DNA of 41,844 nt. Origin: Natronorubrum thiooxidans. GTDB lineage: Archaea > Halobacteriota > Halobacteria > Halobacteriales > Natrialbaceae. The notes under the pieces are model-generated. The model ran no database searches. It was not told the origin of the DNA and saw nothing but the letters and a program-made list of their open reading frames with translations. Both the position numbers and the translations under genes were made by a program. The stretch is from the NCBI RefSeq assembly GCF_900156475.1, contig NZ_FTNR01000020.1:1-41844 (forward strand). Reading direction: 5' to 3'. Positions 2,821-12,772 of this stretch are shown here, in pieces (position 1 is the first letter of the stretch; the number at the start of each line of letters is the position of its first letter).

Positions 2821-3369
2821 ATGGAAATCGTGAACATCGTTGCTTCAGGCGATCTTGGCGTGGAGCTTGATCTGACCCCACTATATACTGACATCACTGC
2901 CGAGAACGTTCAGTATGACCCAGAGCAATTTCCAGGTCTTCAAGTCCGCTTCAGCCAGGAGGGGCCAGTCATAATGTTGTTCTCCTCTGGCTCGTATACG
3001 ATAGTAGGCGCAGATACCCAAGATCAAGTTCAAAGTCTCTATGATCGCCTCAATGAATCGCTAAACAAGCTAGGAATCGAGTATGAATTCGAAGAGGGCA
3101 AGCCAGAGATTCAGAACCTCATCTGCAAAGGCGACCTTGGCCGTGAAATTGACTTGGATGCTCTAGTCATTGCATTGGGATTGGAAAACGTGGAGTATGA
3201 ACCAGAACAATCACCGTTTGTATACTATTGGCCAGATGGATTTGATTGTTTAATTACAATACCGACAAATGGCCAGTGTATCGTTACAGGTGTCAAGTCA
3301 ATAAAAGAAGCCAACCGCGCATTCACCAGTTTCCGCGAAGAAGTTGAACGACTTTTTTCGGGTGAGTAA
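2821..3369 (+). CDS. tbp: TATA-box-binding-protein-like protein 1 (divergent TBP)
   Basis: This 182-residue protein has the two-repeat saddle layout of archaeal TBP. Repeat 1 is about residues 2-85 (IVNIVASGDLGVELDL, then DPEQFPGL, then LFSSGS). Repeat 2 is about 96-178 (IQNLICKGDLGREIDL, then VEYEPEQSPF, then IVTGVKS). The minor-groove Asn residues are kept (N5, N99). The DNA-kinking Phe pair is present in repeat 1 (F37, F54) but lost in repeat 2, where S131 and about P148 stand instead. The protein may therefore bend DNA asymmetrically or bind something other than a standard TATA box. The gene ends 4 bases before the SNF2 helicase ATG, so the two are probably cotranslated. TBP ancestry is visible in the sequence; a role in defence rather than general transcription is inferred from context. 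Confidence 0.85.
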   Translation: MEIVNIVASGDLGVELDLTPLYTDITAENVQYDPEQFPGLQVRFSQEGPVIMLFSSGSYTIVGADTQDQVQSLYDRLNESLNKLGIEYEFEEGKPEIQNLICKGDLGREIDLDALVIALGLENVEYEPEQSPFVYYWPDGFDCLITIPTNGQCIVTGVKSIKEANRAFTSFREEVERLFSGE

Positions 3370-3373
3370 AAAA

Positions 3374-6310
3374 ATGACTAAGTTTGTAGTTGGAGACCAT
3401 GTCAAGTTTGCCGGTGGGCAGGGTGAAATCACAAAAATTGAGGAGCGTCCAAATGGTTCTCAACTTCTCCACGTATACACGGCAGAGGGACAACTACGCA
3501 AGCTCCCAAGTGGCCTGCCCCATATCGAGAAAATTGACTCGATTGTTGACCGTCTCGCAGCAAAGCAAATCAATGATCCCATCCAGTACGATCTTCGAGA
3601 ACGTGCGACTCGCCTTGACCTTGCGTATCGATACGACCGCTTCCTGTCGCTGACAAACAATCGCATCGAGATAGAACCCTATCAGGTGCAGGCGGCCTAC
3701 GAGATACTGAACTCGTACGACCATCGGTACCTTGTCGGCGACGAGGTCGGTCTCGGGAAGACCATTGAAGCAGGCATCGTCATAGAGGAACTCATCGCCC
3801 GTGAACGAGCCGAACGCGTCCTTATCGTTGCCCCCGCACCACTGGCGGTTCAGTGGCAAGAGGAGATGCGAGAGAAGTTCGACCGGAATTTCGTCGTCTA
3901 CGATCGAGAGACTGTCCGAACGCATCGCCAGTCCCATCCTAACCAGAATGTGTGGCTTCAAGAAGACCGCATCATCACCTCGATTGACTTCGCCAAACAG
4001 GACGATATGCTCGAGGCGCTCAGCAACCTCGATGTCCCTTGGGACGTAGCGGTGTTCGACGAGGCCCATCATCTGACTGCTCGCCGGGGAAGCGACGATT
4101 CTATCGAGCGTACTCAGCGGTACAGAGTGGGTGAAGCAGTAGCTGACAATTCTGACTCCCTTCTGTTGCTGACTGGGACACCACACAAGGGGAAATCCGA
4201 TCAGTTCTACTTCCTCGTTAGTTTGCTCGACCCCTATCGCTTCAGCCATGAATCGCAGATCAATCCCGAGTCGCTGGAAGATCTGATGATACGCCGGCTG
4301 AAGGAAGACATGTACGAGGCCGACGGGACGCGTATGTTCCCCGAGAAGAACATCGAAGCGCTTCCCGTGGAGATGACACGGGAAGAGCGAAAGTTGTACG
4401 ATGACGTCACCGAGTATATCCGCGAGTACTACAACCTCGCCCAGCAGGAGGAGAACCAGGCTGCTGGCTTCACCATGGTCGTCTATCAGAAGCGCCTGGT
4501 GTCGAGCATCTATGCCATCCGTAAATCGCTTGAGAACCGAATGCGGGCGATTCAGAACGATGCAGTAGCGGAGGAACTACCTGATGACGTTCAGGAACTC
4601 ATTCCGCGTTACAGCACGGAGCCCGACACGCTCACTGATGCCGAGCGTACCAAAGTCGAAGAAGCACTTGAGACGGTCACAATCACCCTCAATCAGACGC
4701 AGATCGATCAGGAGCTCGACCGAGTCAAGCAATTATGGCAGCAGGCTAAGAACATCAAGACGGACTCGAAGGCCCGCCTTCTTCGGGAGTTTGTTGATCG
4801 CATTCTGAAGGAAGACCCAGACGAGAAGATTCTGATCTTCACCGAGTATACGGATACGCTCGAATACCTCCGGGACGAGGTTTTCGCTGACCACGATATC
4901 GCACAGGTCTATGGAGACCTCAACCAAGACCGGCGTCGTCAGGAGATGCAGAAGTTCGAAGAAGAAGCGAATCTGATGCTTGCTACTGACGCCGCACAGG
5001 AGGGTCTCAACCTTCAATTCGCCCATATAATGGTAAACTACGACTTGCCATGGAATCCGATTCGCATCGACCAGCGCATGGGCCGACTCCACAGATATGG
5101 GCAAGACCGAACTGTCGAGATTCGAAACCTGTTCTTCAAAGATACGCGCGAAAGCGAGATACTCAACCTTCTCGTCGAGAAAACGAACCAGATTGAATCC
5201 GACCTCGGAATGCGGTCTGATGTTCTCGGGCAAGTCCTCGACGACCTCGACCTCGACCAGACGATTATGTCGGCGCTTGCAGAGGGCAGACCCACAGACG
5301 AGGTTGTCGCCGATATTGAAGCAACAATGGAGGAGCGCAAAGAAGCCCTCCAGACCGTTGAGAACGATTTCCTCATCCGAGACCGGTTCGACCTCACCGA
5401 CGAAGACCAAGAGATCCTAGAGGTCATCGAACGGAGTCAGCATGGCGAAGTGAGTGAGGCGGACATCGAGACGATTGTACGCGTCTTCTTCGATGAGTTT
5501 GGCGGGTCTATCAAAGGAGTACGACCCGGCCCTGCCAAAACAGGAGGCGACGTATTCCAGTTGGATGTTCCCGACGTCCTCGTAGGGGGACTCGTAGAGA
5601 ATCGATATCCTCGCGCCACCTTCACAAAAGACGTTGCCATCGAGGAGGAGGATGTGGAATTCATTGCGTTAGATCATCCGTTGACTCAATCACTCATCGG
5701 ATTCTGTCTCGACTCGAATCGGGTGCAGGGTCAAGTCGCTGTGAAAACGACATCGGACAACTCGTTGGCCCCAGGAATCCTGTTCAATTACCGACTCGGG
5801 TACGTTTCGGGTGCTGGTGAGGCTGTAACTGAGAAGTTCGTTCCACTCTATGTAACCCAGGAAGGCGAGTTAGTGAACGAACCGCCGGAGTTCGTAGATA
5901 CCATTCCGCCGTCAGAGATTTCGTCGATTTCTGGTCTTGACCGTATCGCCTCGAAGGCCAACGAACTGCATGGACAAACAGAAATGGCCGCGTGGGATCG
6001 AGTCGAATCCTTCGCCGAGGAGGCCCGTGCCGAACGTGAACGGGAAGTCGAGATCAAGCGAGAACATGCAGAGCGATACTTCCAAGAACAAATAAGCGAG
6101 TGGGAAGAGCGTTTGGAGACATACAAGCGACGTTCTGAGGAAGGTAAGGACATGAGCGCTCCAATCGGAAACGCTGAACGCCAGCTAGAAAATCTACGCA
6201 GAGAACGTGATGAAGAGCTTTCCCATCTCGAAGAGGAGAAACACGTCACACCGGAAGAGCCTGACCTCGTCTCGGCGGCATTCGTAGTTTCAAACAGTGA
6301 GGATGCCTGA
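3374..6310 (+). CDS. SNF2/RapA-family ATPase-helicase (DrmD-like)
   Basis: This is a superfamily 2 DNA translocase of about 978 residues. An SH3/KOW-like N-terminus (FVVGDHVKFAGGQGEI) precedes the Walker A region GDEVGLGKT near residue 125, FDEAHH near 229 and LLLTGTPHKG near 267. The second RecA lobe holds TDAAQEGLNLQ near 540 and DQRMGRLHRYGQ near 570. The C-terminus ends in a charged coiled coil of about 110 residues. ATG 3374 is chosen over TTG 3344 because it starts just after the preceding stop and avoids overlap. The stop overlaps the next ATG (TGATG). SNF2-like proteins of this layout pair with an adenine methylase in class 1 DISARM. They are also related to eukaryotic Mot1, which removes TBP from DNA, and this one sits between two TBP-like genes. 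All helicase motifs look intact. Confidence 0.9.
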   Translation: MTKFVVGDHVKFAGGQGEITKIEERPNGSQLLHVYTAEGQLRKLPSGLPHIEKIDSIVDRLAAKQINDPIQYDLRERATRLDLAYRYDRFLSLTNNRIEIEPYQVQAAYEILNSYDHRYLVGDEVGLGKTIEAGIVIEELIARERAERVLIVAPAPLAVQWQEEMREKFDRNFVVYDRETVRTHRQSHPNQNVWLQEDRIITSIDFAKQDDMLEALSNLDVPWDVAVFDEAHHLTARRGSDDSIERTQRYRVGEAVADNSDSLLLLTGTPHKGKSDQFYFLVSLLDPYRFSHESQINPESLEDLMIRRLKEDMYEADGTRMFPEKNIEALPVEMTREERKLYDDVTEYIREYYNLAQQEENQAAGFTMVVYQKRLVSSIYAIRKSLENRMRAIQNDAVAEELPDDVQELIPRYSTEPDTLTDAERTKVEEALETVTITLNQTQIDQELDRVKQLWQQAKNIKTDSKARLLREFVDRILKEDPDEKILIFTEYTDTLEYLRDEVFADHDIAQVYGDLNQDRRRQEMQKFEEEANLMLATDAAQEGLNLQFAHIMVNYDLPWNPIRIDQRMGRLHRYGQDRTVEIRNLFFKDTRESEILNLLVEKTNQIESDLGMRSDVLGQVLDDLDLDQTIMSALAEGRPTDEVVADIEATMEERKEALQTVENDFLIRDRFDLTDEDQEILEVIERSQHGEVSEADIETIVRVFFDEFGGSIKGVRPGPAKTGGDVFQLDVPDVLVGGLVENRYPRATFTKDVAIEEEDVEFIALDHPLTQSLIGFCLDSNRVQGQVAVKTTSDNSLAPGILFNYRLGYVSGAGEAVTEKFVPLYVTQEGELVNEPPEFVDTIPPSEISSISGLDRIASKANELHGQTEMAAWDRVESFAEEARAEREREVEIKREHAERYFQEQISEWEERLETYKRRSEEGKDMSAPIGNAERQLENLRRERDEELSHLEEEKHVTPEEPDLVSAAFVVSNSEDA

Positions 6311-6858
6311 TGGTAACTATTGTGAATGCCGTTGGGTCTGGCGATCTGGGCGTCGAACTTGACCTTCAGACTCTTGGTGATGATCTGAGTGTTCCATTCA
6401 CCGAATACGACCCCTCGAACTATCACGGGCTCTACGTTCGGCTTGTGGAAGGTGGGCCTCTAATTACGGTGTACCGGAGCGGAAAATACATTATTAGTGG
6501 CTGTTCCAGCTTCCAAGAACTGGAATCTACAAATGAGGAGTTCATCATCCAGATGGCAGACCTAGGGATTTGCAGTAGGTCTCTTGACCCGGGGTTCACC
6601 GTCCAGAACGTCGTCTGCACCGAGGAACTCTCTTCAGCTGTAGATCTTAACACCCTGTCAATTGGACTTGGATTGGAAGCCGTCGAGTACGAACCAGAGC
6701 AGTTCCCAGGGCTCGTATACCGTCCACCCGAGATTGGAGCAGTCATACTAGTGTTCGCAAACGAAAAGGTCGTGATTACGGGTGCAGCAGAGGTTGCAAC
6801 GGCAGAGGAAGCATTCTCTCAGTTACAAACCCGCATTCAGAATTTGATAGAGGCCTGA
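6310..6858 (+). CDS. tbp: TATA-box-binding-protein-like protein 2 (divergent TBP)
   Basis: This second 182-residue TBP-fold protein is a paralogue of the one at 2821-3369. Repeat 1 (about residues 3-86) has IVNAVGSGDLGVELDL. Repeat 2 (about 97-180) has VQNVVCTEELSSAVDL, VEYEPEQFPGLVYR and VVITGAAE. The minor-groove Asn residues are N6 and N100. The kinking Phe pair is kept in repeat 2 (F132, F149), but repeat 1 has Tyr at both places (Y38, Y55). This is the reverse of the first paralogue. The start overlaps the helicase stop, which implies translational coupling. It is clearly divergent from housekeeping TBP, and its partner and DNA site are unknown. Confidence 0.85.
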   Translation: MVTIVNAVGSGDLGVELDLQTLGDDLSVPFTEYDPSNYHGLYVRLVEGGPLITVYRSGKYIISGCSSFQELESTNEEFIIQMADLGICSRSLDPGFTVQNVVCTEELSSAVDLNTLSIGLGLEAVEYEPEQFPGLVYRPPEIGAVILVFANEKVVITGAAEVATAEEAFSQLQTRIQNLIEA

Positions 6859-6929: not shown

Positions 6930-7160
6930 ATGAGGCGGTTCGATGTGGGAGATACTGTTCGGATAGATATCCCAGATACGAGCGATCCTGACTACGAAGA
7001 GTGGCACGGCAGTGAGGGCACAATTATTGAGGTGACGGAGGACACAGCTGGAATCGAAACAGGCGATCCACGTGATAGCATCAGCTATCTCGTCGAAACT
7101 GAGTGTGGCGAGTGTATGCACTTCCGGTGGCGAGATCTTCGACCGCTACAAAACGACTGA
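6930..7160 (+). CDS. Small SH3/KOW-like protein
   Basis: This 76-residue acidic protein starts RRFDVGDTVRIDIPD, followed by GSEGTIIEV and a C-terminal YLVETECGECMHFRW. The VGD-x-V pattern and the glycine turn resemble KOW/SH3-type beta-barrel modules and the first 40 residues of the helicase at 3374. CGEC could bind metal but is only two cysteines. A GGAGG ribosome-binding site lies about 10 bases before the ATG, unlike the leaderless genes elsewhere in the window. It follows the second TBP-like gene by 71 bases on the same strand, so it may be the last gene of that block. Function is not known. Confidence 0.6.
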   Translation: MRRFDVGDTVRIDIPDTSDPDYEEWHGSEGTIIEVTEDTAGIETGDPRDSISYLVETECGECMHFRWRDLRPLQND

Positions 7161-7223: not shown

Positions 7224-8801
7224 TCAGCCAATATATACCCGAGTCAAGCTTCGTGGTGGGCTCTGGATTGAGACTACGCTTTGTGCATTAACCTGCGCGT
7301 CGAGGAGTTTCTCATACATGATCCATCTTCGGACGTCAGCATCAGCGTCTTCGGCTAGCGAAGATAGACCATCTTGTGGCCATTGACCCGGGAGAGTGGC
7401 CTCATAGTGGTAGGTTTCTTTCTCTACAAGCAACCCTGACTTTTCAAGATTGCCCCTATGCCGCTCGTATGATGTCTGGGATAGATCGGCTGCATCGAGG
7501 ATCTCAGAACGTTTCAGTGGAGTGTCGGATTCGAATAGTACACGCATGAACTCCCGTGCGGTCGGTGGTAACCAAGGATAAATCTTCTTTGAATCAACAG
7601 CACCCAGTCCACGTACCAAGGCCTGCATCGTAAGGGAATCATCTGTGGATTCGAGACGATCTGTGGCTATCAGTGCTTCAGCGATGTCGAATGGAGAACA
7701 CGTTAGGGATTTATGCGGAATATTACCGAATGCGAGTAAATAGAACCGCGTGACCGTCGGCACGTCGAGGTTGTCACTAATCGGTCGCCCTAGCCGTTCA
7801 AGCATAGTCTGGACGGTTTGTTGAAGATTCGAATATGTGTTCGCTGTAGTAACCTCGATAGGGATACGGATGCCCTCCTCGGTACCATTAGCAACCTGTT
7901 CTCGAATAGAAACCGACTTGAAGGCCTCAACGATGTCATCGCGGAAGCTCGCGACATCTGGCCCAACAACGACCCAATCAGCGGTGAGGTCAGCATCACG
8001 GTCAGTATCGTCAATATCAACCGGCAGCCGATACCCCAGTTTGTCCCCATCCTCCTCCAGAAGCATCCTGGAGGCTGAGTTCCCCCGATAAGCAGCATTT
8101 TTTGGTACGGTATTTTTCACAAAGGTGATGAACCGATTGTACCTAGAGTCATCTCGCGTTAGCTGGTCGGTGTCGGGCAGACGGATATGGATGGTGAGAT
8201 CAACACCTGCTGCGTCGTAGAGATTGGTGGCTGTTGCAAGAAGGCCGTGAGCCTCGCAACATAGACGTGACCAAATCTCGGGACTCTGATTCCGCGTTCC
8301 GAGCCGGTAGAGCAAGGAAGTACCTACGGACTCGTACCGTGCCCGAAGATCGTCGTAGTTCTGCTCGGTGTCGGACAGCCAGCCGAGTTGACGCCCAAGA
8401 CGGAGGGTATCGAAGGCTGTTGTTCCTGAGAGTAGTGGGTCTACTCGTGACGTCGTTAGAATCCGATCGAACGCACGCTCGCTTAGTAAGGCAACACCAA
8501 GACGCACAAGGGTAGGTATAGGGCCACCCCACTGAACAGCCACGTGGACTTCATCTTCCGAGTGACCAAGGTAGGTGATTCGCCCATCGTCAAATTCCGA
8601 TATCCGGTCATTGACGAGAGTCACACCCCGTGCGCACTTGCCCCCAGCAAGTCGATCTACGAGCTCTTGCTCAGTAAGCCAACAACTGGCCGGCGATAGC
8701 TTGCGGGTGCTGGGCTGTCCGAAACCTCCAGCACTGCCCCCGAGACAAGCTTCGAGGGGTTGGCCCACCTTTATTGGGTGGGTAGAATTTGCCCCCGACA
8801 C
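7224..8801 (-). CDS. Unrecognised wHTH-containing protein (525 aa)
   Basis: I do not recognise this family. Most of the protein is an undetermined alpha/beta region. Near residues 425-490 (TAREFMRVLFESD, then LKRSEILDAADLSQTSYERH, then GNLEKSGLLV) it looks like a winged helix-turn-helix. The start is GTG at 8801, sharing bases with the TAG stop of the upstream gene (8803-8801), so the two are translationally coupled. It converges on the TBP/SNF2 block. Base composition matches the accessory island. It may be a DNA-binding regulator or part of a mobile-element or defence module; there is no direct evidence for either. Confidence 0.65.
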   Translation of the reverse strand: MSGANSTHPIKVGQPLEACLGGSAGGFGQPSTRKLSPASCWLTEQELVDRLAGGKCARGVTLVNDRISEFDDGRITYLGHSEDEVHVAVQWGGPIPTLVRLGVALLSERAFDRILTTSRVDPLLSGTTAFDTLRLGRQLGWLSDTEQNYDDLRARYESVGTSLLYRLGTRNQSPEIWSRLCCEAHGLLATATNLYDAAGVDLTIHIRLPDTDQLTRDDSRYNRFITFVKNTVPKNAAYRGNSASRMLLEEDGDKLGYRLPVDIDDTDRDADLTADWVVVGPDVASFRDDIVEAFKSVSIREQVANGTEEGIRIPIEVTTANTYSNLQQTVQTMLERLGRPISDNLDVPTVTRFYLLAFGNIPHKSLTCSPFDIAEALIATDRLESTDDSLTMQALVRGLGAVDSKKIYPWLPPTAREFMRVLFESDTPLKRSEILDAADLSQTSYERHRGNLEKSGLLVEKETYHYEATLPGQWPQDGLSSLAEDADADVRRWIMYEKLLDAQVNAQSVVSIQSPPRSLTRVYIG

Positions 8802-9874
8802 TATCCTTGTGTGCAGTTGGGGGGTGTGGTCAGGTCGTCGCTAAACCGGGCTTGCTGAGGATGACGAATCTGGATATCGTCAGTTAAGAGGCCTTGAGCA
8901 TACCTACCAGCAGGAGTGAGAGTCACAGAATTATAGCACCCTCGATCATCTACTGCCAAGAATCCATGATCCTGTTCAAGTTCCCTGTAGTAGCGATCAA
9001 TAGTCCCTGAACTCAAATCGAGGCTGCTATCGGTCTTGAGATCCCGGATCTCTCGATATTCTTTTTCATTTGATGGGATAGCTGCCAATAACCGAAGCCT
9101 CCCACCTTTGGGAGTGAATGCTTGGAGAGCTTCATAGACAGACTGGGGGTCAACCTCGTTATCGACTGAAACGGAAGCGGTGTTATCTGCTGTGTGCGTG
9201 TTGCCGCTCTCAGTAAGGTAGGTATCGATCCATTCTGGATGTCTATCTCTGAGAAATGTTTCGAGTGAAGGCGATGCTAAGAGATCAATCGCACAGGTCT
9301 TCGAGAGGATGGCGATCGTTTTGAGCCCTCGTTTCCGTTGAGCTCGTTGTGTATTCCGCCAAGCGGACTCATCCAGTAACAGCGAAACTCGGGGTGTAGT
9401 TGGTGCGAGGGCAATCAACTGCATTGGCCCTGGTTCAAGATTACCAATACCGGTATTCAGTTCGTGATACCCTGTTCCAATCTTGACCAACGTATCGACG
9501 GAAGGTGGTCGATCCTCACTATGTCGAGTTGGCCAATCTTCACGAGGTAAGCCCCGCACGCGCACAGTGAATTCTGCAGCGGCATATGGGTACCAGCCAC
9601 CAACAGCCTTCACTTGATAGAATTCGTTGAGAATCACGGGGACGTGTCCCTGACGTGGCATGTGGAGAAGTTTCGGATCGTGACACTTTGCGACTTCTTC
9701 TACTGCTTCAACGACCCATGGGAGTAGTCCCTCGAGTAGATCTGGAAGCCAGTCGCGGCGTGCGGGAGTAACGTTTTCCAAGGTAAAATCGGGTTTCTTG
9801 GCCGAAGTAGCTGGCAAAAATTCAACGTTCCCATTGAATTCGGGCCAAACATATTCTGTACTTGTGGAGGGCAT
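8801..9874 (-). CDS. Unrecognised protein with C-terminal wHTH
   Basis: This is about 357 residues from the ATG at 9874 (PSTSTEYVWPEF). The longer frame to 9955 is rejected because a TATA-like GTTAAATACC lies about 30 bases before 9874, which fits a leaderless start. The N-terminal two thirds match nothing I recognise. The C-terminus (residues 245-330, including RLRLLAAIPSNEKEYREIRDL and GTIDRYYRELEQDHGFL) looks like a winged helix that senses or binds DNA. It forms an operon with the coupled gene at 7224-8801. The pair could be regulators of the island. Confidence 0.6.
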   Translation of the reverse strand: MPSTSTEYVWPEFNGNVEFLPATSAKKPDFTLENVTPARRDWLPDLLEGLLPWVVEAVEEVAKCHDPKLLHMPRQGHVPVILNEFYQVKAVGGWYPYAAAEFTVRVRGLPREDWPTRHSEDRPPSVDTLVKIGTGYHELNTGIGNLEPGPMQLIALAPTTPRVSLLLDESAWRNTQRAQRKRGLKTIAILSKTCAIDLLASPSLETFLRDRHPEWIDTYLTESGNTHTADNTASVSVDNEVDPQSVYEALQAFTPKGGRLRLLAAIPSNEKEYREIRDLKTDSSLDLSSGTIDRYYRELEQDHGFLAVDDRGCYNSVTLTPAGRYAQGLLTDDIQIRHPQQARFSDDLTTPPNCTQG

Positions 9875-9899
9875 TACATATGAAAAGAACCCAATCGGG

Positions 9900-9909
9900 G
9901 TATTTAACG
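9900..9909 (-). promoter_or_regulatory. TATA box of the wHTH operon
   Basis: GTTAAATACC on the minus strand is centred about 30 bases before the ATG at 9874. This spacing is usual for leaderless haloarchaeal transcripts and is the main reason for choosing that start. Confidence 0.5.
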
Positions 9910-9965
9910 GCTTGTCAGACAAATGTCTGTTAGGGCAAGTGTGAGAACGACCCACATTCCCGGAG

Positions 9966-9974: not shown

Positions 9975-10238
9975 TGGTGGGTGGACTTATGAATGCACTT
10001 CCCCGCTTTGGGGAGAGAAAACGCAGGAAACGACGATCGCGCACGGAATTGTAAGCCCGCTCCAACCTAGCTGCCTGAAAACGGGCCATAGCGCGACCGT
10101 CTCCCCGAGATCGACCAACCAGTGACAACAATCTCAAACCATGATCAGGCAGACATATCTCTCGATCGGTTCGCTCGAAGGCCATCCGCAAACAATCCTC
10201 TCACACCCCAACCAGGAGTATCTCGTGGAGGCGTGCGA

Positions 10239-11390
10239 ATGACCGGTGCCGACATCTCAGAGCTCATTGATGAACTGGGTGACGAATTGGCCGGCCCACT
10301 TGCCGAGAAGCTCGGTGAACAGATGACGCCTTCTCTCAACTCAATGACTCCCGAGGAGGCTGTGGACAAGTACTTCGATACCAGAGAACTGAAAGACAAT
10401 ACTCAGTACACGCACGAATCCTCGCTTCGGAATTTCTTCCTCCGCTGGTGCGATGATGTAGCCGATATCGACGATATGAACGAACTCTCTGGAAATGATC
10501 TCGCAAGCTATCGGATATGGCGGCGTGACGAGGCCTCAAAACGTGTGGATAAACTGAGTCCGAAAAGCGAGGAGACACAGCAGAAAATCACGCGCACATT
10601 CATCAAGCACTGCGAATCTTGGGAAGTCGTTCGCTCCGGCCTCCATGAGCACGTTATTGTTCCGAGTCTCGACAAGAACGATGAAGTACGTGATGAAATC
10701 CTCGACTCTGAAACGGCGAAAGAAGTACTTGAGTGGCTCCAAAAGTACGAATACGGGGACGTCCAGCACGTCGTCTGGTTGCTCTTATCATCCTGCGGGG
10801 CGCGTACCGGTGGGATTCACTCGCTCGACCTCAGAGATTACGTCACCAACGATGACGGGTCTTATCTCAAATTCCGTCATCGGCCCGAAACAGGAACTAC
10901 GCTCAAGAATGACTACGAAGGGGAGCGGAACGTGGACATACCCCGTTCCGTGAGCGATGTACTCGACGACTACATTGCTGATCACCGGGAATCCTCCACA
11001 GACGAGCAGGGGCGCGAGCCTCTCCTCACGACCGCCCACGGACGGCTCGGCAAAAGTACGATTCGCAACTACATCTACGCCTGGACACGCCCGTGCGCGA
11101 TCGGTCGAGGATGTCCGTACGACCGAGACCCTGAAGAATGCGATGCAGCTCGTCGGAACAATTGGGCATTCGAGTGTCCAGATAGTTTGAGTTGCCACCC
11201 TGTCCGCAAGGGGTACATTACAGCGGAGCTGAAGGCGGGAGTTCCGAAAGCTACGATCAGCCAACGCTGCGACGTGTCAGAGGCAGTTATGGACAAACAC
11301 TACGATCACCGGACTGAAGAGGAGAAGATGGCTGCACGGCGTGTCGCGCTGAAACTCGCCCACGAAACGGAGAAGGGGTACGGCGAGTAG
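10239..11390 (+). CDS. Tyrosine recombinase/integrase 1 with Cys4 insert
   Basis: This site-specific recombinase has 383 residues. A SAM-like N-terminal core-binding domain (about residues 35-140) is followed by the catalytic domain. Visible catalytic residues are Arg189 (GARTGG), His320 and Arg323 (HPVR) and the nucleophile Tyr355 (HYDHRT). Just before the HxxR box lies a cysteine set, C286-x5-C292-x8-C301-x11-C313, probably a zinc site. ATG 10239 is preferred over the upstream in-frame start at 10122 because GGAGG lies 8-12 bases before it and the extra 39 residues look unstructured. It is clearly related to the gene at 12911-13930 (shared RHRPETGT and the same Cys spacing). It probably integrates or inverts DNA; no attachment site could be identified. 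Confidence 0.85.
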   Translation: MTGADISELIDELGDELAGPLAEKLGEQMTPSLNSMTPEEAVDKYFDTRELKDNTQYTHESSLRNFFLRWCDDVADIDDMNELSGNDLASYRIWRRDEASKRVDKLSPKSEETQQKITRTFIKHCESWEVVRSGLHEHVIVPSLDKNDEVRDEILDSETAKEVLEWLQKYEYGDVQHVVWLLLSSCGARTGGIHSLDLRDYVTNDDGSYLKFRHRPETGTTLKNDYEGERNVDIPRSVSDVLDDYIADHRESSTDEQGREPLLTTAHGRLGKSTIRNYIYAWTRPCAIGRGCPYDRDPEECDAARRNNWAFECPDSLSCHPVRKGYITAELKAGVPKATISQRCDVSEAVMDKHYDHRTEEEKMAARRVALKLAHETEKGYGE

Positions 11391-11533: not shown

Positions 11534-12772
11534 ATGAGTTTTCCCATGGAACGTCGTGAGTACATATTCTTATCTGGAACTGCCTTTTGTACGGTTTCAG
11601 GTTGTCTTGATGGAAGTGGATTGTCTACCGAAGACGAACCAGACGAAGACGACTCGGAGAACGAGAGAGAACCAGACGAAGACGACTCGGAGAACGAGAG
11701 AGAACCAGACGAAGACGACAGTTCAGATACTGAAGGCCCTACAATCCACGATTTTACGTTGTCCGGAAAGACATTCGAACCAGGAGACAGTATGAAGATT
11801 GATGTCGAGGTGGCTGATGAGACAGACATTGAACGTATTTACTTCCGATTCGAACACGAGAATGGCGGGGGAGCAGTCTTCGATGCGTACCGTGATTTTT
11901 CACCAGCAGTCGATGATGGAACACATACGATCTCGTACCAGTGGCCGGAGAATACTCCTGGGGGAACTTACGAAATCACGTCGATCAGTACCCGCGATAG
12001 TATTGGGAATTTCGGGAGCCAGACAGACTCATTCAGTATCGATAAAAGAACCATCGAGATCGAGTCAAAGATGTCTGACACTGAAGCCCCGATAATTCAC
12101 AACTTCACGTTGTCGGGAAGGAAATTCGAGCCAGGAGACAGCATGAAGATTGATGTGGACGTAACTGACGAGACAGACATCGAACGGATCTACTTCCGCT
12201 TCGAACACAAGGATGGTGGGGGCGCGGTCTTTGATGCGTACCGTGACTTTTCACCAGCAGTCGATGATGGAACACATACGATCTCGTACCAGTGGCCGGA
12301 GAATACTTCCGGAGGTGCTTACGAAATCACGTCGATCAGTACCCGCGATAGTATTGGGAATTTCGGGAGCCAGACAGACTCATTCAGTATCGATAAAAGA
12401 ACCATCGAGATTGAATCAGAGACGGTTGATACTGAAGCTCCAATAGTTCACGACTTCACGTTGTCGGGAAGGAAATTCGAACCAGGAGACAGTATGAAGA
12501 TTGATGTTGAGGTGACTGACAAGACAGACATCGAACGGATCTATTTTCGCTTCGAACACGAGGATGGCGGGGGTGCAGTCTTCGATGCGTACCGTGACTT
12601 TTCACCAGCAGTCGATGATGGAACACATACAATCTCGTATCAGTGGCCAGAAAACACTCCTGGGGGAACTTACGAAATTACGTCAATCAGTACCCGCGAT
12701 AGTATTGGGAATTTCAGGAGCCAGACAGACTCATTCAGTATCGATAAAAGAACCATCGAGATTGAGACATAA
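11534..12772 (+). CDS. Secreted lipoprotein with three Ig-like repeats
   Basis: The N-terminus has MERREYIFLSG and a lipobox VSGC, so this is probably a Tat-exported lipoprotein anchored outside the cell. An acidic linker follows, made of the 11-residue unit EPDEDDSENER repeated 2.6 times. The rest is three 117-residue units, each starting near IHDFTLSG and ending near IDKRTIEIE. They look like beta-sandwich (Ig or cadherin-like) modules and are almost identical. The start may be ATG 11546 rather than 11534, because a TATA-like element (TTTTTACGT, 11515-11523) lies about 27 bases before 11546. It lies between two recombinase genes. A surface or adhesion role is inferred only from architecture. 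Confidence 0.75.
   Translation: MSFPMERREYIFLSGTAFCTVSGCLDGSGLSTEDEPDEDDSENEREPDEDDSENEREPDEDDSSDTEGPTIHDFTLSGKTFEPGDSMKIDVEVADETDIERIYFRFEHENGGGAVFDAYRDFSPAVDDGTHTISYQWPENTPGGTYEITSISTRDSIGNFGSQTDSFSIDKRTIEIESKMSDTEAPIIHNFTLSGRKFEPGDSMKIDVDVTDETDIERIYFRFEHKDGGGAVFDAYRDFSPAVDDGTHTISYQWPENTSGGAYEITSISTRDSIGNFGSQTDSFSIDKRTIEIESETVDTEAPIVHDFTLSGRKFEPGDSMKIDVEVTDKTDIERIYFRFEHEDGGGAVFDAYRDFSPAVDDGTHTISYQWPENTPGGTYEITSISTRDSIGNFRSQTDSFSIDKRTIEIET
11636..11719 (+). repeat. 33-bp tandem repeat, 2.6 copies
   Basis: Units start at 11636, 11669 and 11702 with a period of exactly 33 bases. They encode the acidic linker of the lipoprotein. Confidence 0.9.
11737..12769 (+). repeat. 351-bp tandem repeat, three copies
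   Basis: Equivalent points (ACGTTGTC) fall at 11756, 12107 and 12458, so the period is 351 bases or 117 codons. Long stretches are identical between copies at the DNA level, which implies recent duplication or gene conversion. Confidence 0.9.

Follow-up and report, generated by a model that had tools for sequence, protein, structure and literature searches.

The locus that starts a contig of Natronorubrum thiooxidans raises the question of why two divergent TATA-binding proteins (TBPs) are encoded on either side of a SNF2-family ATPase and next to an adenine methylase. The window, i.e. the whole stretch of DNA analyzed here, is the complete haloarchaeal contig NZ_FTNR01000020.1 (41,844 nucleotides; G000:C14 in our numbering, in which G, C, and L stand for genomes, contigs, and loci). 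The 3' part of an operon lies on its plus strand in the order methylase (C-terminal part, 93–2786), TBP1 (2821–3369, 182 residues), SNF2 ATPase (3374–6310, 978 residues), and TBP2 (6310–6858, 182 residues). The original prediction, made from the letters of this DNA, had described the same gene order, and its open reading frames (ORFs) and coordinates for the three genes agreed with ours, as did the spacing of 4 bases between TBP1 and SNF2 (the TBP1 stop ends at 3369 and the SNF2 ATG begins at 3374) and the TGATG overlap of the SNF2 stop and the TBP2 start at 6308–6312. We tentatively propose that half-saddle TBPs of this kind are dedicated accessory factors of methylation-based immunity, that loci for restriction, BREX, or DISARM-like systems have each taken up one or two of them, and that the type found in the window pairs complementary N-half and C-half TBPs, which would work together.

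Both small proteins matched the Pfam TBP family (5.9e-39 for TBP1 and 2.1e-38 for TBP2) with two repeats each and with scores of 132 and 130 bits, respectively, against a cut-off of 22.9. The structure model of TBP1 (predicted local distance difference test score 92.8) gave 1ais as the best PDB match (E 4.6e-15, template-modelling score 0.84) and also matched 1pcz, and TBP2 resembles archaeal TBP structures by sequence. The TBP fold that had been claimed for both proteins is therefore borne out by the profiles and, for TBP1, is also what the model predicts. The individual repeats of TBP1 and TBP2 scored 58–76 bits, compared with approximately 104 bits per repeat in the four canonical TBP genes present elsewhere in the same genome. 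At the positions of the intercalating Phe pairs, TBP1 has Phe-Phe in the N-terminal half followed by Ser-Pro, and TBP2 has Tyr-Tyr followed by Phe-Phe, so that neither carries both of the Phe pairs of canonical TATA bending. TBP2 also retains the Glu pair, which in the established structures of canonical TBPs contacts transcription factor B (TFB).

Among 53 distinct divergent TBPs, the full N-terminal Phe pair was missing in 51 (with Tyr-Tyr in 32), the C-terminal Phe pair was retained in 49, and the TFB-contact Glu pair in 51. The reverse pattern, with the N-terminal pair kept, was seen only in window TBP1 and its 74% identical relative at locus L074, each of which occurs alongside a TBP2 of the Tyr-Tyr/Phe-Phe type. 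Loss of the N-terminal Phe pair has been described for TbpC, a TBP reported to be readily deleted and not expressed under laboratory conditions (PMC4230888, PMC2121645); TBP2 shares with TbpC of Halobacterium salinarum NRC-1 (pNRC100/pNRC200) both this loss and the retained C-terminal pair, and TBP1 is its mirror image. In the TBP tree, TBP2 and the NRC-1 protein (L114) fell into one clade of 24 rows with a support of 97/99, and TBP1 was placed outside it. On pNRC100, a SNF2 with 82% identity to that of the window is followed directly on its 3' side by a TBP with 66% identity to TBP2, and, judging by the replicon and the Phe pattern, the gene for this TBP is probably tbpC, although the record gives no gene name. 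The ratio of non-synonymous to synonymous substitution rates (dN/dS) was approximately 0.11 for TBP2 and 0.068 for SNF2, which points to purifying selection on TBP2 and makes it hard to regard the TBPs as relics.

To place these proteins among other TBPs, we collected every TBP domain from 22 genomes and then, as a repeat, from 20 further haloarchaeal genomes (42 in total). A TBP was called canonical when its best repeat scored at least 93 bits, a line that was drawn after the gap in the first set had been seen and was kept for the second. The second set was chosen by even numbering, and three of its members (G308, G334, and G338) were already known to hold the SNF2 clade of the window. The counts are of gene or fragment entries, so that a degenerate gene can count twice. 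In the first set, 15 of the 20 divergent entries, but 0 of 36 canonical ones, lay within 6 kb of an adenine methylase (p 9.5e-10); the second set gave 9/12 versus 0/34 (p 2e-7), and the combined figures were 24/32 versus 0/70 (p 7.7e-17). When positions were compared within contigs, 10 of 14 loci showed the association against 1.3 expected (p 2.8e-11), a null that accounts for plasmids, not for smaller islands, and that omits contigs G001:C2 and G015:C1. Several of the eight divergent entries lying farther than 6 kb away were still found by defence genes, namely BREX (L103), type I restriction–modification (RM) (L156), and the window-type SNF2 (L059 and L107); the clear exceptions to the defence link were fragments or very weak copies (L159 and L164).

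The partners are of several unrelated kinds: type I RM systems (L100, L105, L108, L156, L160, L161, L165, and L166), BREX (L092, L099, L103, and L104), type IIG enzymes (L102, L106, and L162), a DISARM-like SNF2 locus (L046), and the window-type SNF2 system itself, the families having been assigned with Pfam or PADLOC for representatives and by similarity or sequence reading for the others. At L102 and L106, the type IIG enzyme occurs without a separate SNF2 gene. Next to the L060 SNF2, and likewise at L064, which carries the same TBP, the usual TBP2 is replaced at the same place by a TBP that belongs to the type I RM clade (node support 100/97). On this tree, TBPs are exchanged between defence systems, and a TBP is thus not bound to a single partner enzyme. 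In some loci (L099, L105, and L113), the TBP is encoded on the strand opposite its neighbors. The type I RM loci L105 and L108 have two TBPs each, at least one of them on the strand opposite the restriction genes. In L098 (773–8050), two TBPs and a DrmMI-like methylase were seen beside a 1062-residue protein of the PD-(D/E)XK nuclease superfamily and a 1211-residue protein, which is possibly a further defence module.

The distribution of the window arrangement itself was followed in a survey of 391 genomes, 107 of which had SNF2 relatives. One SNF2 clade, with identities of 75–83%, stood out as that of the window, and its named hosts were Halorubrum, Haloarcula japonica, Natrinema, Halorientalis, and Halolamina. 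A TBP followed SNF2 directly on the 3' side in 24 of the 35 distinct loci of this clade (one truncated, hence intact in 23), so that the adjacency of TBP and SNF2 is not a matter of chance, and the two genes often overlapped by 1–4 nucleotides, which points to translational coupling. The presence of TBP2 tracked the SNF2 tree with few losses (4 changes versus 10.9 after shuffling). An extra TBP between methylase and SNF2 was found in only 5/33 loci, and the full TBP–SNF2–TBP order in 4/33 scorable loci (the window, L063, L074, and L087). The synteny linked to defence that the original prediction had told the reader to look for thus exists, but its TBP pair is not the usual unit, the commoner form having a single 3' TBP. 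The prediction was to fall if the small proteins lacked a TBP fold or if the genes were never conserved together; the fold is supported and the genes recur together. The same type of TBP1 accompanied the same C-terminal methylase allele in the window, L074, and L035. A strict pairing of the upstream TBP with a methylase allele was nevertheless rejected, as L070, whose methylase is 76% identical to that of the TBP1-bearing L057, has no upstream TBP. A sister SNF2 clade with 51–61% identity includes DISARM loci with DrmA, DrmB, DrmC, and DrmMII, as seen in representatives such as L047.

The SNF2 ORF (3374–6310) matched the Pfam families Helicase_C (3.4e-25) and SNF2-rel_dom (2.7e-18). Among defence profiles it scored best with BrxHII (583 bits), followed by DrmD (387 bits), and among solved structures RapA was the closest (172 bits), whereas Mot1 reached only approximately 45 bits. 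Approximately 95 residues precede the ATPase region.

The methylase ORF (174–2786, the longest ORF within 93–2786) matched Eco57I (1.2e-36) and TaqI_C (4.7e-10) in Pfam, and its best defence-profile score was with DrmMI (5.6e-69; 2.4e-110 for the full-length homologue at L074, by PADLOC). The DrmMI-like methylase of the original prediction thus stands, although the ORF in the window covers only the C-terminal two thirds of it. Residues 1–486 are encoded on another contig of the same genome (C24) and residues 484–1380 on the window contig; the window methylase is 82% identical to that of L074 and contains one in-frame TGA. C24 (L155:6451–8245) holds the promoter, the gene for a conserved 63-residue protein, which is the first gene of the operon, and the N-terminal part of the methylase. 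The window contig starts inside a repeat element whose end occupies positions 1–95 (no strand assigned) and recurs at 100% identity in contigs C50, C41, and C30. Since these first 95 bases belong to a multi-copy element, the methylase gene of this genome appears to be interrupted by an insertion-sequence-like repeat, as read from contig ends rather than from a closed assembly, and the operon may be inactive here. The methylase of the pNRC100 copy in H. salinarum (L114; pNRC100 102993–121529) is likewise interrupted, by ISH27. Of 42 full-length homologues, all carried an NPPY or NPPW motif and approximately 39–40 a PD...DAK motif close to the N-terminus. Owing to the conservation of both motifs, the protein resembles a type IIG nuclease-methylase, with nuclease and methylase motifs in one chain in the full-length homologues.

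Comparison of the upstream regions of 25 related loci revealed a palindrome, TAGTCT-AAGTAA-AGACTA, that leads into the TATA box, keeps an almost constant distance from the first ATG (-49 to -52), and lies at L155:6451–6475 in the window genome. It was present with 0–4 mismatches in 17 of 18 loci with TBP2 and in all 7 without it, and was not found near the TBPs of other systems. It is thus a conserved control site of the operon, with no dependence on TBP2. Since the promoters were alike in the two groups, we rejected the idea that TBP2 regulates the promoter of its own operon through a special site. The palindrome is perhaps the operator of the 63-residue protein, for which an AbrB-like identity was considered and found no Pfam support. 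The lone exception was the NRC-1 plasmid copy (L114), in which both palindrome and TATA box have decayed, a state that may contribute to the lack of tbpC expression seen in the laboratory.

We favor, if not quite with even confidence, the reading in which the locus belongs, as its 3' part, to a haloarchaeal defence operon based on DNA modification, and in which the TBPs act on the transcription side of the host. Such an operon would consist of the 63-residue protein, the type IIG-like and DrmMI-like nuclease/methylase, TBP1, the RapA-like SNF2 translocase, and TBP2. To judge from the protein families, the methylase would mark host DNA, and its nuclease domain together with the translocase would attack unmarked DNA. 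Both TBPs would be members of a wider TbpC-like class attached to many unrelated methylation-based defence loci, in which the TBP fold is kept, one half of the saddle (usually the N-terminal one) is without its DNA-kinking Phe pair, and the C-terminal half with the TFB contact is preserved. They would act through DNA and TFB as initiation factors of altered specificity or as competitors of the usual ones, and, instead of serving one enzyme as subunits, would tune transcription at defence genes or at other promoters, perhaps viral ones. Several points weigh against this reading: (i) no target promoter was found, and the binding of TFB or DNA by TbpC-type proteins is something that we infer, (ii) the operon promoter was the same with and without TBP2 and gave no sign of TBP2 action there, (iii) the frequent translational coupling of TBP2 to SNF2 is also compatible with a protein complex, and (iv) deletion of tbpC in NRC-1 had no apparent phenotype (PMC2121645).

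The coupling leads to the alternative that the TBPs belong physically to the methylase/SNF2 effector, as DNA-binding subunits that aid enzyme loading or site recognition, with the N half of TBP1 and the C half of TBP2 as two complementary half-saddles, which comes near the original suggestion that a TBP pair could mark or bend invading DNA. The 4-nucleotide spacing and the overlaps of 1–4 nucleotides imply coupled production, TBP2 is co-inherited with SNF2, the TBP1 proteins of the window and L074 mirror the Phe pattern of TBP2, and one type of TBP1 goes with one methylase allele in three loci. We nevertheless find it doubtful: the same class of TBP stands beside unrelated enzymes (type I RM, BREX, and single-gene type IIG), has been swapped between systems, and is in some loci encoded on the opposite strand, and 11 of the 35 SNF2 loci have no 3' TBP at all, so that the enzymes can do without it. 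Optional presence, interchangeability, association with any defence system, and a promoter that is invariant with and without TBP2 would all be accounted for if the TBPs were a weapon or a bait, i.e. TFB-binding variants that block viral promoters or act as decoys for viral anti-transcription factors, and an HF1-group provirus has been reported to have an extra TBP-family gene (PMC7230728). This possibility is unlikely, as it leaves the translational coupling to particular enzymes unexplained, an effect on viral promoters has no direct support, and searches of IMG/VR with TBP2 and with SNF2 gave no viral relatives.

Mot1 is itself a SNF2 ATPase that acts on TBP, to which it binds through N-terminal HEAT repeats, and in the window a SNF2 gene adjoins TBP in one operon; the original prediction considered that the ATPase might strip TBP from DNA and so silence foreign promoters. 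The analogy was not supported. The SNF2 of the window is much closer to RapA than to Mot1, the stretch ahead of its ATPase region is too short for a HEAT array that could bind TBP, and TBPs of the same class accompany type IIG enzymes lacking a separate SNF2 gene. A Mot1-like pair is thereby ruled out as a general explanation and is very unlikely for this locus, and any TBP–SNF2 machine is unlikely as the general function, because the TBPs also accompany single-gene type IIG enzymes. That the TBPs have lost their function and are relics, one of the two options put forward for TbpC (PMC4230888), would agree with the loss of one Phe pair, the lack of tbpC expression in the laboratory (PMC4230888), and the existence of truncated copies (L083 and L159). 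This is extremely unlikely in view of the low dN/dS of TBP2, the intact genes in most loci of the clade, and the conservation of the replacement residues themselves (Tyr-Tyr in 32/53). A role on the transcription side, which would use the retained TFB contact and an altered DNA contact, fits best; the many unrelated partners and the swapping between systems disfavor a subunit of a single enzyme, and the RapA-like SNF2 and the SNF2-less type IIG partners disfavor a Mot1-type pair.

Downstream of TBP2, the window encodes a small conserved 76-residue protein (6930–7160, plus strand) that appears KOW/SH3-like by eye and matched no Pfam family. In L105, L106, and L109, homologues of it lie 24–126 nucleotides from TBPs that belong to other systems, but it was rejected as a general TBP partner, since it was found within 2.5 kb of only 6 of 94 TBP entries (duplicate loci included). 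On the minus strand at 7224–9955 are two overlapping ORFs of 384 and 525 residues, the second with a weak HVO_A0261-type domain; they match parts of single proteins of approximately 950–1130 residues near the same type of locus in L074, L058, and L114 (NRC-1) and, by this comparison, may be a split gene. Beyond the defence genes follow a probable integrase (10122–11390, by similarity to an integrase-like cluster) and a protein with near-identical internal repeats (11534–12772).

The multiplicity of haloarchaeal TBPs has been debated for two decades, mostly in terms of promoter-class selection. The association with adenine methylases, the residue signature, and purifying selection together tie TbpC-like TBPs to defence and give these unexplained proteins a likely home. 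If the proposal is true, immunity is connected directly to the core transcription machinery, and part of the puzzle of the extra haloarchaeal TBPs is explained by defence. The question is now directly testable in Halobacterium salinarum and Haloferax.

TbpC has previously been described as 'nonfunctional or very specialised' (PMC4230888), and in the papers searched we found no link between it and SNF2, methylases, or defence. For the reverse pattern of TBP1, the nearest counterparts in PMC4230888 are ungrouped sequences missing the C-terminal phenylalanines. Searches of open-licence full-text papers, a scope that does not take in the original DISARM and BREX papers, found none that connects TBPs with restriction, BREX, or DISARM loci of haloarchaea, which agrees with the original statement that TBP partners are not known from any described version of class 1 DISARM. 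With that system the window shares a DrmMI-like methylase and a DrmD-like SNF2, but the parallel does not extend to membership: no DrmA, DrmB, or DrmC was found around loci of the window clade (for the window genome, 8 kb of the separate contig that carries the upstream side were read), TBPs are present, and SNF2 scored 441 bits with the NCBIfam DrmD model, below its cut-off of 610. Class 1 DISARM was therefore ruled out for the window clade. Nor is it a BREX system, as no PglZ or BrxC cluster was common to the window-clade loci, though SNF2 scores best with BrxHII.

ARMADA (PMC12458937) is similar in having a BrxHII/RapA-like helicase and a PglX-like methylase, but it is defined by a YprA-family helicase, of which there was none among the gene clusters common to window-clade loci, and a TBP is not described for it. 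As a working analogy only for a TBP with altered DNA contacts, we may point to the animal TBP paralogue TLF/TRF2, which does not bind the TATA box and interacts with TFIIB (PMC3142196). Within prokaryotes, TBPs are known from the TOTE and TALON systems (cited in PMC12458937); TALON differs from the window type in being largely confined to Chloroflexota, in having a TPR-CSD fusion and a NERD nuclease, and in its remaining gene content. TOTE and TALON are the only precedent that we found for TBP proteins in prokaryotic conflict systems, and the TbpC-like TBPs of haloarchaeal defence loci would add to it a link between archaeal immunity and the basal transcription apparatus.
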